From: an uncultured Bacilli bacterium
Lineage (GTDB): Bacteria; Bacillota_I; Bacilli_A; RF39; UBA660
Direction: 5' to 3'
NCBI GenBank assembly: GCA_944359085.1
Contig: CALVSQ010000007.1
Span: 1-42,558, forward strand
DNA length: 42,558 nucleotides
In this document: positions 9,948 to 33,986 of the stretch, piece by piece
How the letters are laid out: each line of letters opens with the position of its first letter
Position numbering within the stretch: position 1 is the stretch's first letter
Program-made: the position numbers and the translations under genes
Notes under the pieces: model-generated
Told to the model about the DNA's origin: nothing
The model's input: only the letters and a program-made list of their open reading frames with translations
Databases searched by the model: none

Positions 9948-10277
9948 ATGTATCAAGATCGAATAATGTTGACCGTTAAAGATATATTTGAAAAAGAATT
10001 TAAGTTGGATACAAGGGGGTATCGTCCACAAGAGGTGGACAAATTCTTAGATATAATCATGCGTGATTATGAAGAATTTATGGCTATTAATAAAGAACTT
10101 TCTAATGAAATAAGAGATTTAACTAATGATAATATGAAGTTAAAGCAAGAAATTAGAAGTTTAAAAATGAAATTAGATATTTTAAAAGAAAATGCTGATA
10201 GTGATTCTGGAAGTAATAGTGTCGATGTTTTAAAAAGATTATCTAATTTAGAAAAAATTATATATGGTAAAGAATAA
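9948..10277 (+). CDS. gpsB: Cell cycle protein GpsB (DivIVA family)
   Basis: A 109-residue DivIVA-domain protein. GpsB shuttles between septum and side wall and coordinates PBP1 in cell division. The N-terminal half holds the membrane-binding DivIVA signature (LTVKDIFEKEFKLDTRGYRPQEVDKFLD), followed by a heptad coiled coil (about 40-75), a Ser/Asp-rich linker, and a short C-terminal trimerisation helix (VDVLKRLSNLEKIIYG). Its short length separates it from full DivIVA. It lies directly upstream of RNase P RNA as in Bacillus, which supports GpsB. Its stop codon lies inside the P1 helix of that RNA. Confidence 0.93.
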   Translation: MYQDRIMLTVKDIFEKEFKLDTRGYRPQEVDKFLDIIMRDYEEFMAINKELSNEIRDLTNDNMKLKQEIRSLKMKLDILKENADSDSGSNSVDVLKRLSNLEKIIYGKE

Positions 10278-10615
10278 TACTTGACAAACGCTGCATTTGA
10301 TGTAGAGGAAAGTCCATGCTTGCACTATCCTGAGATGGTAGTAGTGATTGTGCATAGGGAAAAAATAACCTATGGTAGGTTTTAACCTAACGGCATCGAA
10401 ATAATCCTATAAGGATTAAATTAGATATAAAGTGCCACAGAAACGATGCTTCTAGTAATAGAAGAATGAAACGCGGTAAACCCCACAAGCAAGAAACCCA
10501 AATTATGGTAGGGGAGTTTAAATAAGGGAATTAAACTTTATTTAGAACCAATTTATTGGTAGATAGATGTTTGTCGCTCTATTTAGAGTACAGAACATGG
10601 CTTATAAGTATTATT
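10273..10615 (+). ncRNA. rnpB: RNase P RNA (type B)
   Basis: The catalytic RNA of RNase P, which matures tRNA 5' ends. The universally conserved blocks are present: GAGGAAAGTCCATGC near 10304, AGTGCCACAG near 10431, GAAACGCGGTAAACCCC near 10468, GCAAGAAACCCAAAT near 10488, GGTAGGGGAG near 10506, and ACATGGCTTA near 10595. Block order and the 3' region resemble the Bacillus type B architecture. The ends were placed by a perfect 10-bp P1 helix, AATAATACTT (10273-10282) with AAGTATTATT (10606-10615), followed by a T-run (10614-10621) that also makes P1 a terminator. The 5' strand overlaps the gpsB stop codon, so the RNA must be cut from the gpsB transcript or start within gpsB. Confidence 0.95.
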
Positions 10616-18312: not shown

Positions 18313-18336
18313 TAGAAATTAATCTACTATTTTTTT
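18310..18336. terminator. Terminator of rny, shared with the facing small gene
   Basis: Stem TAGTAGA (18310-18316) with TCTACTA (18323-18329), then seven T. The rny stop TAG forms the foot of the stem. The minus-strand gene stops at 18335-18337, so the hairpin can serve both. Confidence 0.8.
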
Positions 18337-18544
18337 ATCGATAATATGGTCCAGGTCCATAGTATGGATATGGTGGGTATGGATAAATAGGACGGTTATA
18401 TGGTGGACGCCAGAAATTAGGTGCTAATGCAGCTCCGGTTACACCACCTAATAAGAATGGAAATGCAAATCCACCAATAAATCTTTCATCTGTTGGATAT
18501 TGTGAATTATTTTTATAATTCATATTTTGATAATTAGGATACAT
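18335..18544 (-). CDS. Small Tyr/Pro-rich protein, putative spore coat component
   Basis: A 69-residue protein with no family I can name. The N-terminal third is Asn/Tyr-rich and polar, the middle is a Gly/Phe-rich hydrophobic stretch (FIGGFAFPFLLGGVTGAAL), and the end is Pro/Tyr repeats (PIYPYPPYPYYGPGPYY). This composition is common in small spore coat and cortex-associated proteins of Firmicutes, which are often tyrosine cross-linked. ATG at 18542-18544 has a strong SD (AAAGGAGT). A sequence fitting a sigma-K promoter (AC-N16-CATAGACTA) stands directly upstream, pointing to late mother-cell expression. Function is inferred only from composition and promoter. Confidence 0.72.
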   Translation of the reverse strand: MYPNYQNMNYKNNSQYPTDERFIGGFAFPFLLGGVTGAALAPNFWRPPYNRPIYPYPPYPYYGPGPYYR

Positions 18545-18563
18545 AATAAAACTCCTTTCAATT

Positions 18564-18590
18564 TAGTCTATGAAATATAGAAAAAAAAGT
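18564..18590 (-). promoter_or_regulatory. Sigma-K-like promoter of the small coat-like gene
   Basis: Read on the minus strand: TTTCAC with the -35 AC at 18590-18589, exactly 16 bases, then CATAGACTA (18572-18564), a full match to CATAnnnTA. The predicted start falls at the SD, so the leader would be very short. The same pattern stands before gerE at 33456-33482. Confidence 0.55.
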
Positions 18591-18622
18591 GAAATATTTC
18601 ATATATTTAAATAGGTGAAAAA

Positions 18623-19462
18623 ATGAAAAAAATATTTGAAAGTATTGGTTTTATAACTTTAATATTATTTAGTTTTGTTTATACTAATAAAATAACAACT
18701 GTTATAAAAGAAAATGATGATATTTTAGAACAAATAAAAAGTATTGAAAATCAATATAAAACAGAACCAATAAACGCTATAATAAATGAAAATACTATTA
18801 TAACAGGAGTGTCTGGTAGTCAAATTGATATCCAAGAAAGTTATAAAAAAATGAAAAAAACTAATCAATTTAATACTAATTTATTAGTATATGAAAAAAT
18901 AAAACCAACAATAAGTGTTAAAAATAATTATGATAAATATATAATTAAAAGTAGTAAAAATGCTGTTAGTTTGATATTTTTAGTTGAACAACATAATGAT
19001 ATAAATAAAGTACTTACTATTTTAGATAAATACGATATAAAAGCTAATTTTTTTACTGATGGTAATTGGTTTGAAGATAATAATAACAAAGTAATTTCAT
19101 TAATTGAAGAAGGACACATAGTTGGTAATTTAGGTTATAATTATGATTATAAAGTAAATGGCGTTAGTTGGATGAATACAATTGTTACCAAAATTGGTAA
19201 TCAAAATGATTCTTATTGTTATGTTGAAGAAGAAAATGAGGAAGCCTTAAATATATGTAAACAAAACAAAAGTTATACTATTATGCCTAATATAATAGTG
19301 AAAAATAATCCTTTAATTACAATTAAACAAAATTTAATTAATGGAAGCATTATTTCTTTAAAAATAAATGATAATGTAATTAATGAATTACCACTTATAA
19401 TTCAATATATTAATTCAAAAGATTTAAAGATTTTAAATATTGCAGAATTATTGGATGAATAA
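18623..19462 (+). CDS. Membrane-anchored NodB-like pseudoenzyme (polysaccharide deacetylase fold, catalytic residues lost)
   Basis: A 279-residue protein with an N-terminal membrane helix (about 5-22), a linker with coiled tendency, then a region from residue 113 that follows the polysaccharide deacetylase (NodB) pattern: hydrophobic strand, helix LTILDKYDIKANFFTDGNWF, and VISLIEEGHIVGN. In active enzymes the first strand ends in TFDDG and the GN is followed by HTxxH. Here these are IFLVEQ (118-123) and GNLGYNYD (168-175), so both catalytic Asp and both metal His are gone. The gene is otherwise intact, with SD TAGGTGA and a terminator, so it may be a binding or regulatory protein. It stands near genes with sporulation character. 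Confidence 0.78.
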   Translation: MKKIFESIGFITLILFSFVYTNKITTVIKENDDILEQIKSIENQYKTEPINAIINENTIITGVSGSQIDIQESYKKMKKTNQFNTNLLVYEKIKPTISVKNNYDKYIIKSSKNAVSLIFLVEQHNDINKVLTILDKYDIKANFFTDGNWFEDNNNKVISLIEEGHIVGNLGYNYDYKVNGVSWMNTIVTKIGNQNDSYCYVEEENEEALNICKQNKSYTIMPNIIVKNNPLITIKQNLINGSIISLKINDNVINELPLIIQYINSKDLKILNIAELLDE

Positions 19463-32209: not shown

Positions 32210-33160
32210 TTATTTTATTTCTTTTAAAACATTTTTTAATATTTCTTCATCTTCAGTTTTTATAACAACTTCACTAACATCATAATTATCTTTAACAGAT
32301 AAACAAATAGTATAAACTACTTCTTCTAAAATATCTTTACTGCCAACATCAGAAAATATATAGGAATTAAATGTTAATTCTAAAATATCAGGTTGTTCTT
32401 CTATAGCTAAAAGCTCGGTATTACTATTTAAATAGCTTAATAAGTTAGTATTATAAGTATTGGTACTAGTTAATTCATCAATTATTATTTTTATTTTGTC
32501 TCTATTATCATTTAAATATTTAGTAACTGGAACGTAATAATAATCATCATTATGTTTATTTAAATAGTAAATTGTTACTTGGTTAATATCTTTAGTATTT
32601 GTAAAATCATAAGTTTTGTTAATACCAAAATTTCTATCTAAAGTACTAGGTAAGGTTATATTTGTTTGAGGTAATTTAGTTAAAATATTTCCTTCAACAT
32701 AGATTATTACTTTTTCTACTTCATCAACTGAAGTTATTGTATAAACTAAAGCTTCAATCATTTTCTCTTCTAATTCTTTACTAATATTTAATAAATCTTT
32801 AGAAAAATCTATCTTAATTAAATTATCTTCATATTTAATACTTAATATTTTAGTTTCACTAGGCAATATTGATTTAAATCCATTTGGTATTTTATTTTCC
32901 CCAACACCACCATTTATTAAAACTTCGACTAACTCTTTAACTTTATCTTCAGTTGTTTTACTATTTACAACAACTTCAGTTTTACCTAAATAACTATATT
33001 CATCTAATAAATAGATATTATTCGTAGTAACATCTAAATCAATATATTCTAAACTTTGTTTTATATCTAATTCTTCGTTAGGTATTAAATAAATTAAAAA
33101 TAATGCGAATAAAGCAGATGTGGAGATAATAATTTTTCTTATCATCTTTTTCTTTAACAT
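32210..33160 (-). CDS. gerM: GerM-like sporulation/germination protein with two GerMN domains
   Basis: A 316-residue protein with an N-terminal membrane anchor (about 8-25) and two GerMN domains (about 40-165 and 185-316), recognisable by the repeated strand-helix pattern ending in SVDEVEKVIIYVEG and DVSEVVIKTED. In Bacillus GerM is made in the mother cell, lies in the intermembrane space around the forespore and stabilises the SpoIIQ-SpoIIIAH channel. The gene sits next to gerE and spoIIIAH here, which supports the role. ATG 33158-33160 has SD AGGTGAT. Bacillus GerM is a lipoprotein of about 366 aa; no lipobox Cys is visible here. Confidence 0.9.
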   Translation of the reverse strand: MLKKKMIRKIIISTSALFALFLIYLIPNEELDIKQSLEYIDLDVTTNNIYLLDEYSYLGKTEVVVNSKTTEDKVKELVEVLINGGVGENKIPNGFKSILPSETKILSIKYEDNLIKIDFSKDLLNISKELEEKMIEALVYTITSVDEVEKVIIYVEGNILTKLPQTNITLPSTLDRNFGINKTYDFTNTKDINQVTIYYLNKHNDDYYYVPVTKYLNDNRDKIKIIIDELTSTNTYNTNLLSYLNSNTELLAIEEQPDILELTFNSYIFSDVGSKDILEEVVYTICLSVKDNYDVSEVVIKTEDEEILKNVLKEIK

Positions 33161-33183: not shown

Positions 33184-33210
33184 AAAAAAAAGGTTATATA
33201 TACCTTTTTA
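33184..33210 (-). terminator. Terminator after gerE
   Basis: Minus strand stem AAAAAGGT with ACCTTTTT and a 7-base loop, then T-run. The gerE stop (33210-33208) lies at its foot. A CATAATAT box just downstream could serve as a sigma-E-type -10 for gerM, weakly. Confidence 0.55.
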
Positions 33211-33414
33211 TAATGAAATTTCCTTTAATTTTAAAAGTTCTATGACAGCACCAGCACGTCCTTTAACACCAAGTTTTTGCATAACATTAGAAATATGATT
33301 TCTAACTGTTTTTTCGCTTATACCTAATTTTTTTGCTATTTGATCAGTTGATTTATTTAATACTAACAAATCAAAAACTTGTTTTTCTCTTTTTGTCAAA
33401 ACACTTTTAGACAT
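33208..33414 (-). CDS. gerE: GerE-like LuxR-family sporulation regulator
   Basis: A 68-residue stand-alone LuxR-type helix-turn-helix: LTKREKQVFDLLVLNKSTDQIAKKLGISEKTVRNHISNVMQKLGVKGRAGAVIELLK covers nearly the whole protein, with no receiver domain. Bacillus GerE has 74 residues and the same form, and controls late spore coat genes in the mother cell with sigma-K. A promoter matching the sigma-K consensus stands upstream. ATG 33412-33414 has SD AAGTGAGGG. Neighbours are gerM and spoIIIAH, so GerE is the best call; other small LuxR-type regulators are the alternative. Confidence 0.9.
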   Translation of the reverse strand: MSKSVLTKREKQVFDLLVLNKSTDQIAKKLGISEKTVRNHISNVMQKLGVKGRAGAVIELLKLKEISL

Positions 33415-33428
33415 AATTCCCTCACTTC

Positions 33429-33473
33429 CTTAAGGTGGTTTATAGTTCTTCATATTATTCTATGTACCTTAAG
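33429..33473. repeat. Inverted repeat around the gerE promoter
   Basis: CTTAAGGT (33429-33436) and ACCTTAAG (33466-33473) form an 8-bp inverted repeat separated by 29 bases that contain the -10. It may be an operator for autoregulation. Confidence 0.4.
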
Positions 33474-33482
33474 AAAATAAGT
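33456..33482 (-). promoter_or_regulatory. Sigma-K-like promoter of gerE
   Basis: Minus strand TTTCAC with AC at 33482-33481, exactly 16 bases, then CATAGAATA (33464-33456), matching CATAnnnTA. In Bacillus gerE is a sigma-K gene. Confidence 0.65.
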
Positions 33483-33494
33483 GAAATAAAAAGC

Positions 33495-33986
33495 CTATTT
33501 AACAAACTTAACCGTTATATATTTTTCTTCTTCATATAATTCTTGAATAGTTCGCATTATATTGTTAGCTAAGGTTGAATCATTTTCTTCTTTTTTTACA
33601 ACAACTTCAATTTGACCATTTCTTATTTTTACAAAACTTTCTAAATTATAAACTTCTTTTATTTTATTTTCTAATTTTTCTTCTTCACCTTTATTCATAT
33701 TTAATTCTTTCATTTTGTCAAAAGCTTTATTTTTTTCTTCAATAGTTCCATCTCCATTTAATATTAATTGTAGATTTTCCATCTCTTTTAATAATTCTTC
33801 TTCTGCTTCTACTCTTAATGCTACTAAAACAGTACTTTCGGTAACATTAGTGGTTGGCTCTTCTTCTTTTGTATAATTACCATTTGTACTAATTAATAAT
33901 TCACTTGGCATAGTGATATAATAAACACTTAATACTAAAATAAGACTAAATAAAGTTAAAAACCAAATACTTTTTTTATTTATCAT
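33495..33986 (-). CDS. spoIIIAH: SpoIIIAH-like sporulation channel protein
   Basis: A 163-residue protein with an N-terminal membrane helix (about 7-25), a Glu/Thr-rich linker, a helical stretch (about 50-105, RVEAEEELLKEMENLQLIL) and a C-terminal beta-alpha EscJ/PrgK-like ring-building domain (LENKIKEVYNLESFVKIRNGQIEVVVKK). SpoIIIAH on the mother-cell side joins forespore SpoIIQ to form the feeding channel. Usually spoIIIAH is the last gene of the spoIIIA operon; here it stands apart, upstream of gerE and gerM. ATG 33984-33986 has SD AGGTGAAT. No clear terminator follows, so read-through to gerE is possible. Confidence 0.87.
   Translation of the reverse strand: MINKKSIWFLTLFSLILVLSVYYITMPSELLISTNGNYTKEEEPTTNVTESTVLVALRVEAEEELLKEMENLQLILNGDGTIEEKNKAFDKMKELNMNKGEEEKLENKIKEVYNLESFVKIRNGQIEVVVKKEENDSTLANNIMRTIQELYEEEKYITVKFVK

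Follow-up and report, generated by a model that had tools for sequence, protein, structure and literature searches.

The window analysed here, a stretch of 42,558 nucleotides, carries two copies of the pattern TTTCAC-N16-CATAGAMTA, both on the minus strand. One of them (18564-18594, full site TTTCACTTTTTTTTCTATATTTCATAGACTA), with the -35 element TTTCAC at 18589-18594 and the -10 element CATAGACTA at 18564-18572, lies upstream of an open reading frame for a 69-aa Tyr/Pro-rich protein (18335-18544, minus strand). The Shine-Dalgarno sequence of this gene, AAAGGAG (18552-18558, minus strand), is kept as GAAAGGAG in relatives. The other copy (33456-33486, full site TTTCACTTATTTTCTTAAGGTACATAGAATA; -35 TTTCAC at 33481-33486, -10 CATAGAATA at 33456-33464) precedes gerE (33208-33414), which codes for a 68-aa protein with a LuxR/GerE-type HTH (Pfam GerE, 8.7e-21). 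On the same strand, gerE is followed by a GerM-like gene with two Germane domains (32210-33160; Pfam Germane, 1.3e-26) and preceded by spoIIIAH (33495-33986; Pfam SpoIIIAH, 8.2e-10), the stop codon of which is placed 80 nt before the gerE ATG and the transcript of which can read into gerE. An earlier note on this DNA had reported the pattern in front of the 69-aa gene and gerE, and both copies were found there; the sites are real, but the ranges given for them cover AC..TA alone and leave off the first four bases of TTTCAC. The order of spoIIIAH and gerE, a hairpin that overlaps the gerE promoter and a position-locked TRGGY element were not part of that note.

The full pattern had an expected count of 0.00 in shuffled windows. 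Exactly two copies were present in the 1,125,979-base assembly (68% complete), and the reversed control pattern was found 0 times. As a bare consensus, AC-N16-CATAnnnTA turns up in the AT-rich window about as often as chance predicts (3 found vs. 2.9 expected); what supports sigma-K is therefore the longer match together with conservation. Conservation was followed in the UBA660 family, sampled in 148 genera with genomes of about 1.1 Mb. AC-N16/17-CATAnnnTA was detected upstream of gerE in 111 of 133 family relatives, compared with 1.2% of shuffles, with spacers of 16 nt in 96 promoters and of 17 nt in 15. Upstream of the 69-aa gene it was present in 22 of 28 homologues (0.26 expected), and in all homologues having it the promoter is located 45-48 nt before the ATG. 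The distance between motif and ATG is nearly fixed for both genes throughout the genus, and the motif also occurs in other genera of the family. Outside it, the sigma-K consensus was seen at gerE in six of seven genomes from other Bacilli families (L244-L250). The long ORF upstream of gerE in these genomes is presumably uvrC, as recognised by its N-terminus, and in several of them the consensus is situated at or very near the 3′ end of this ORF. The sites described here have the same -35, spacing and -10 as the sigma-K promoters of Bacillus, exemplified by bclA of B. thuringiensis, CAC-N16-CATATGTTA (PMC4750369), and by the B. subtilis regulon (PMC517825). They differ from them in a longer shared YTCAC, and the extended form stands at two genes only in the genome of the window.

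The assembly contains a sigK gene (G000:C30), which scored 302 bits against a curated cut-off of 298.65. The helix that reads the -35 element is ISRSYVSR in this sigK and ISQSYISR in the sigE of the same genome. Whether C or T is read at the fourth base of the -35 element depends, in B. subtilis, on this Arg/Gln difference (PMC517825), and the split between the two sigma factors is matched by the same C/T split in the family's own promoters: gerE and the 69-aa gene have C as the discriminating base, and spoIIIAH has T (ATA). Among the UBA660 family genomes, the regions upstream of gerE were of the sigma-K type in 111/133 cases and of the sigma-E type in 1/133, and those upstream of the 69-aa gene in 22/28 and 0/28 cases, respectively. 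The regions upstream of spoIIIAH gave the opposite picture, with 0/37 of the sigma-K type and 13/37 of the sigma-E type (0.18 expected by chance); the spoIIIAH promoter of the window species itself showed no clear sigma-E match. The -10 sequence is common to sigma-E and sigma-K, and there are B. subtilis promoters recognised by both factors (PMC517825), which would allow the two sites to be sigma-E promoters or to be used by both sigma factors. Against the C at their -35 elements, the T at spoIIIAH, and the Arg and Gln of the genome's own sigK and sigE, we regard this as highly improbable. With sigK present, its -35-reading residue right and the motif conserved across genera, the earlier assignment to sigma-K holds, and both sites are almost certainly sigma-K promoters, as judged from sequence.

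The sigK gene is uninterrupted in the genome of the window and in that of G009. In the genus-mates G013 and G001 (L238:2652-5568 and L239) it is interrupted at about codon 110, and the ~1.8 kb before the full sigK contains two zinc-ribbon ORFs and a truncated 111-aa second copy of the 5′ half of sigK. The direct repeat in L238 is 342 bp long and 95% identical. No recombinase was visible at the insertion of L238 and L239, the position of which recalls that of skin elements.

The pattern had also been put forward as a means of finding the whole regulon, and in this role it failed, since the genome scan returned just the 69-aa gene and gerE. Relaxed patterns gave 13 matches vs. 12 controls in the same genome and 54 matches vs. 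43 controls in four genomes, and TCAC-N15-17-CATAnnnTA was equal to its reversed control. When YTCAC-N16-CATARNMTA was searched for in 18 genomes of the genus, mainly the same two genes were recovered. The remaining sigma-K genes must have weaker promoters, require GerE, or lie in the third of the genome that the assembly lacks. Near sigE in the same genome, a gene for a small Gly/Tyr-rich protein (MYYYGGYSGYGYGQ...) was noted (L237:196-378, minus strand), which we take to resemble YjcZ-type sporulation proteins; no sigma-K consensus was seen upstream of it.

The 69-aa protein has homologues in the genus and scattered ones in the family, with 51-100% identity over the best segments in named genomes. 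It is composed of a conserved core, FPFLLGG(V/I)TGxxLAP, and a Tyr/Pro-rich tail. The conserved sigma-K-type promoter indicates that its gene is very probably a late mother-cell gene, which agrees with one half of the earlier description as a probable late mother-cell coat protein. The other half found no backing in homology to a known coat family. As no Pfam or NCBIfam family matches the protein, a place in the coat stays a guess drawn from composition and timing. Divergent from this gene, at 18623-19462, there is a polysaccharide deacetylase gene, the product of which is similar to YlxY, a sporulation protein, with a match (2.4e-27) that falls short of the family cut-off.

The arrangement upstream of gerE is common in the family: the C-terminal motif of SpoIIIAH is encoded upstream of gerE in 110 of 133 genomes. 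No terminator-like hairpin was found between spoIIIAH and the gerE -35 element in 85 of 93 genomes, nor in the window. The RNA running from spoIIIAH into gerE was predicted to fold in the window into a 21-pair stem with one bulged base (-25.6 kcal/mol, z -3.3). The 5′ arm (33466-33487, minus strand), called from the fold and from covariation, overlaps the -35 element and spacer of the gerE promoter. The 3′ arm (ACCTTAAGGAAGTGAGGGAAT, 33416-33436, minus strand), called from the fold and the predicted unpaired probabilities, lies downstream of the -10 element and holds the gerE Shine-Dalgarno sequence AGGAAGTGA. In the window species, the predicted openness of the Shine-Dalgarno sequence was 0.05 in the read-through RNA, 0.43 with shuffled 5′ regions and 0.47 in the sigma-K RNA. 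The corresponding values for genomes outside the genus were 0.25, 0.39 and 0.51, and the difference between read-through and sigma-K RNA was significant (p 2e-14). In 61 of 94 genomes, 7 or more of the 10 bases in the Shine-Dalgarno window paired with upstream sequence; when the 5′ regions were shuffled, the figure was 30.5. Within the genus, two types of gerE leader pair in different registers, and the Shine-Dalgarno sequence is covered in both. In the eight genomes with a terminator-like hairpin after spoIIIAH the arms pair about equally strongly, though the pairing is less needed there; neither a terminator nor the distance from spoIIIAH predicts the strength of the hairpin. No Rfam family covers the gerE hairpin, and our literature search found no description of a gerE-spoIIIAH arrangement with such a hairpin.

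The complementarity of the two arms is partly generic, since the TCAC of the -35 element faces the GTGA of the Shine-Dalgarno sequence, and it could be a functionless by-product of consensus sequences, with only the promoters being real. The pairing was examined in a permutation test, in which the 5′ region of each genome was combined with its own leader and with the leaders of other genomes; this design takes out the effects of shared consensus sequence, but as phylogeny was ignored beyond dropping the own genus, some phylogenetic dependence is left in it. Permuted partners already out-paired shuffles (-10.70 vs. -9.30 kcal/mol), and pairing was weak or absent in about one fifth of genomes, e.g., L062, L065, L068, L116 and L122, and some genera lack it, as a by-product would permit. 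However, own partners reached -12.98 kcal/mol against the -10.70 kcal/mol of foreign ones (z -9.6 for the 94 genomes that belong to other genera), and the spacer alone, which is free to vary under the promoter constraint, gave a z of -4.1; control regions gave +1.4 and -2.3. The promoter of the 69-aa gene, which has the same -35 element, showed no pairing in this test (-6.38 own vs. -6.83), and the long genus-specific stems CACTTTCTT/AAGAAAGTG (L071) and CCTTTATTTTT/AAAAATAAAGG (L072) are not consensus sequence. A by-product is thus rather unlikely in our opinion. The inverted repeat might also serve at the DNA level as an operator for a protein, GerE or SpoIIID, rather than as an RNA structure. 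What speaks for it is a TRGGY element, which begins 15-17 nt before the -35 AC in 60 of 111 gerE promoters, is nearly absent from the rest of the 60 nt upstream, and is found in 0 of the 22 promoters of the 69-aa gene. In the window this is the candidate GerE box AAATAGGCTTTT (33489-33500, minus strand), with the core TAGGC at 33493-33497, and it overlaps the spoIIIAH stop codon. The position of TRGGY is locked to that of the promoter, which makes the action of a DNA-binding protein there probable. Nevertheless, the element lies outside the stem, and the arms change their sequence between genera yet stay complementary, while an operator should keep its sequence; this explanation of the repeat is therefore very unlikely. 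TRGGY fits the core of the GerE box, going by the B. subtilis consensus RWWTRGGYNNYY, and its place next to the -35 element suggests that GerE may regulate its own gene.

We consider it likely that the two sites are sigma-K promoters and that the one at gerE doubles as the template for the 5′ arm of a hairpin that masks the Shine-Dalgarno sequence and thereby times GerE. Under this reading, spoIIIAH would be transcribed early, presumably by sigma-E, and the transcription would continue into gerE. No GerE would be made early because the Shine-Dalgarno sequence would be buried in the hairpin of the read-through RNA. Once sigma-K is active, transcription would begin inside the predicted hairpin loop, and the resulting RNA, devoid of the 5′ arm, would have an open Shine-Dalgarno sequence and be translated. 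With the sigma-K promoter placed in the 5′ arm, only the late RNA would be free of the stem. The TRGGY element beside the -35 may then let GerE act on its own promoter. In B. subtilis, sigK itself and half of the sigma-K genes are targets of GerE repression (PMC517825), and premature GerE would for this reason plausibly be harmful. We also lean towards a family-wide lock, proposed on comparative sequence grounds, in which spoIIIAH and gerE are co-transcribed early, GerE is translated only after sigma-K, and GerE adds autoregulation; this would be a convergent counterpart, in the opposite compartment of the sporulating cell, of the lock proposed for sigG.

In B. subtilis, sigG (spoIIIG) is located behind spoIIGA-sigE, and a hairpin of 20 or more pairs, which cannot form in the RNA from its own promoter, has been proposed to keep the read-through transcript from being translated (PMC5942855). 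Both cases would have the gene of a late sporulation regulator behind an earlier sporulation gene and a hairpin masking it on read-through RNA. They differ in that sigG is a forespore sigma factor, whereas here, in a different lineage, the gene following spoIIIAH is the mother-cell regulator gerE, and the 5′ arm contains a sigma-K promoter. A similar arrangement is known from phage T4, in which the long early RNAs of gene e (lysozyme) and of I-TevI sequester the ribosome site in a helix, and late promoters starting in or near its 5′ strand yield translatable RNA (PMC3014915). Those are phage genes with T4 late promoters and were tested experimentally, while the gerE hairpin is a prediction. 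These data suggest that hiding the ribosome site in read-through RNA, as proposed for sigG, evolved independently in the case of gerE lying behind spoIIIAH. They also indicate that the mother-cell step of sigma-K and gerE, with the same promoter code, persists in uncultured gut Bacilli with small genomes that are close to mycoplasmas. Elsewhere in the window, a class B RNase P RNA was detected at 10276-10609 (272.6 bits).
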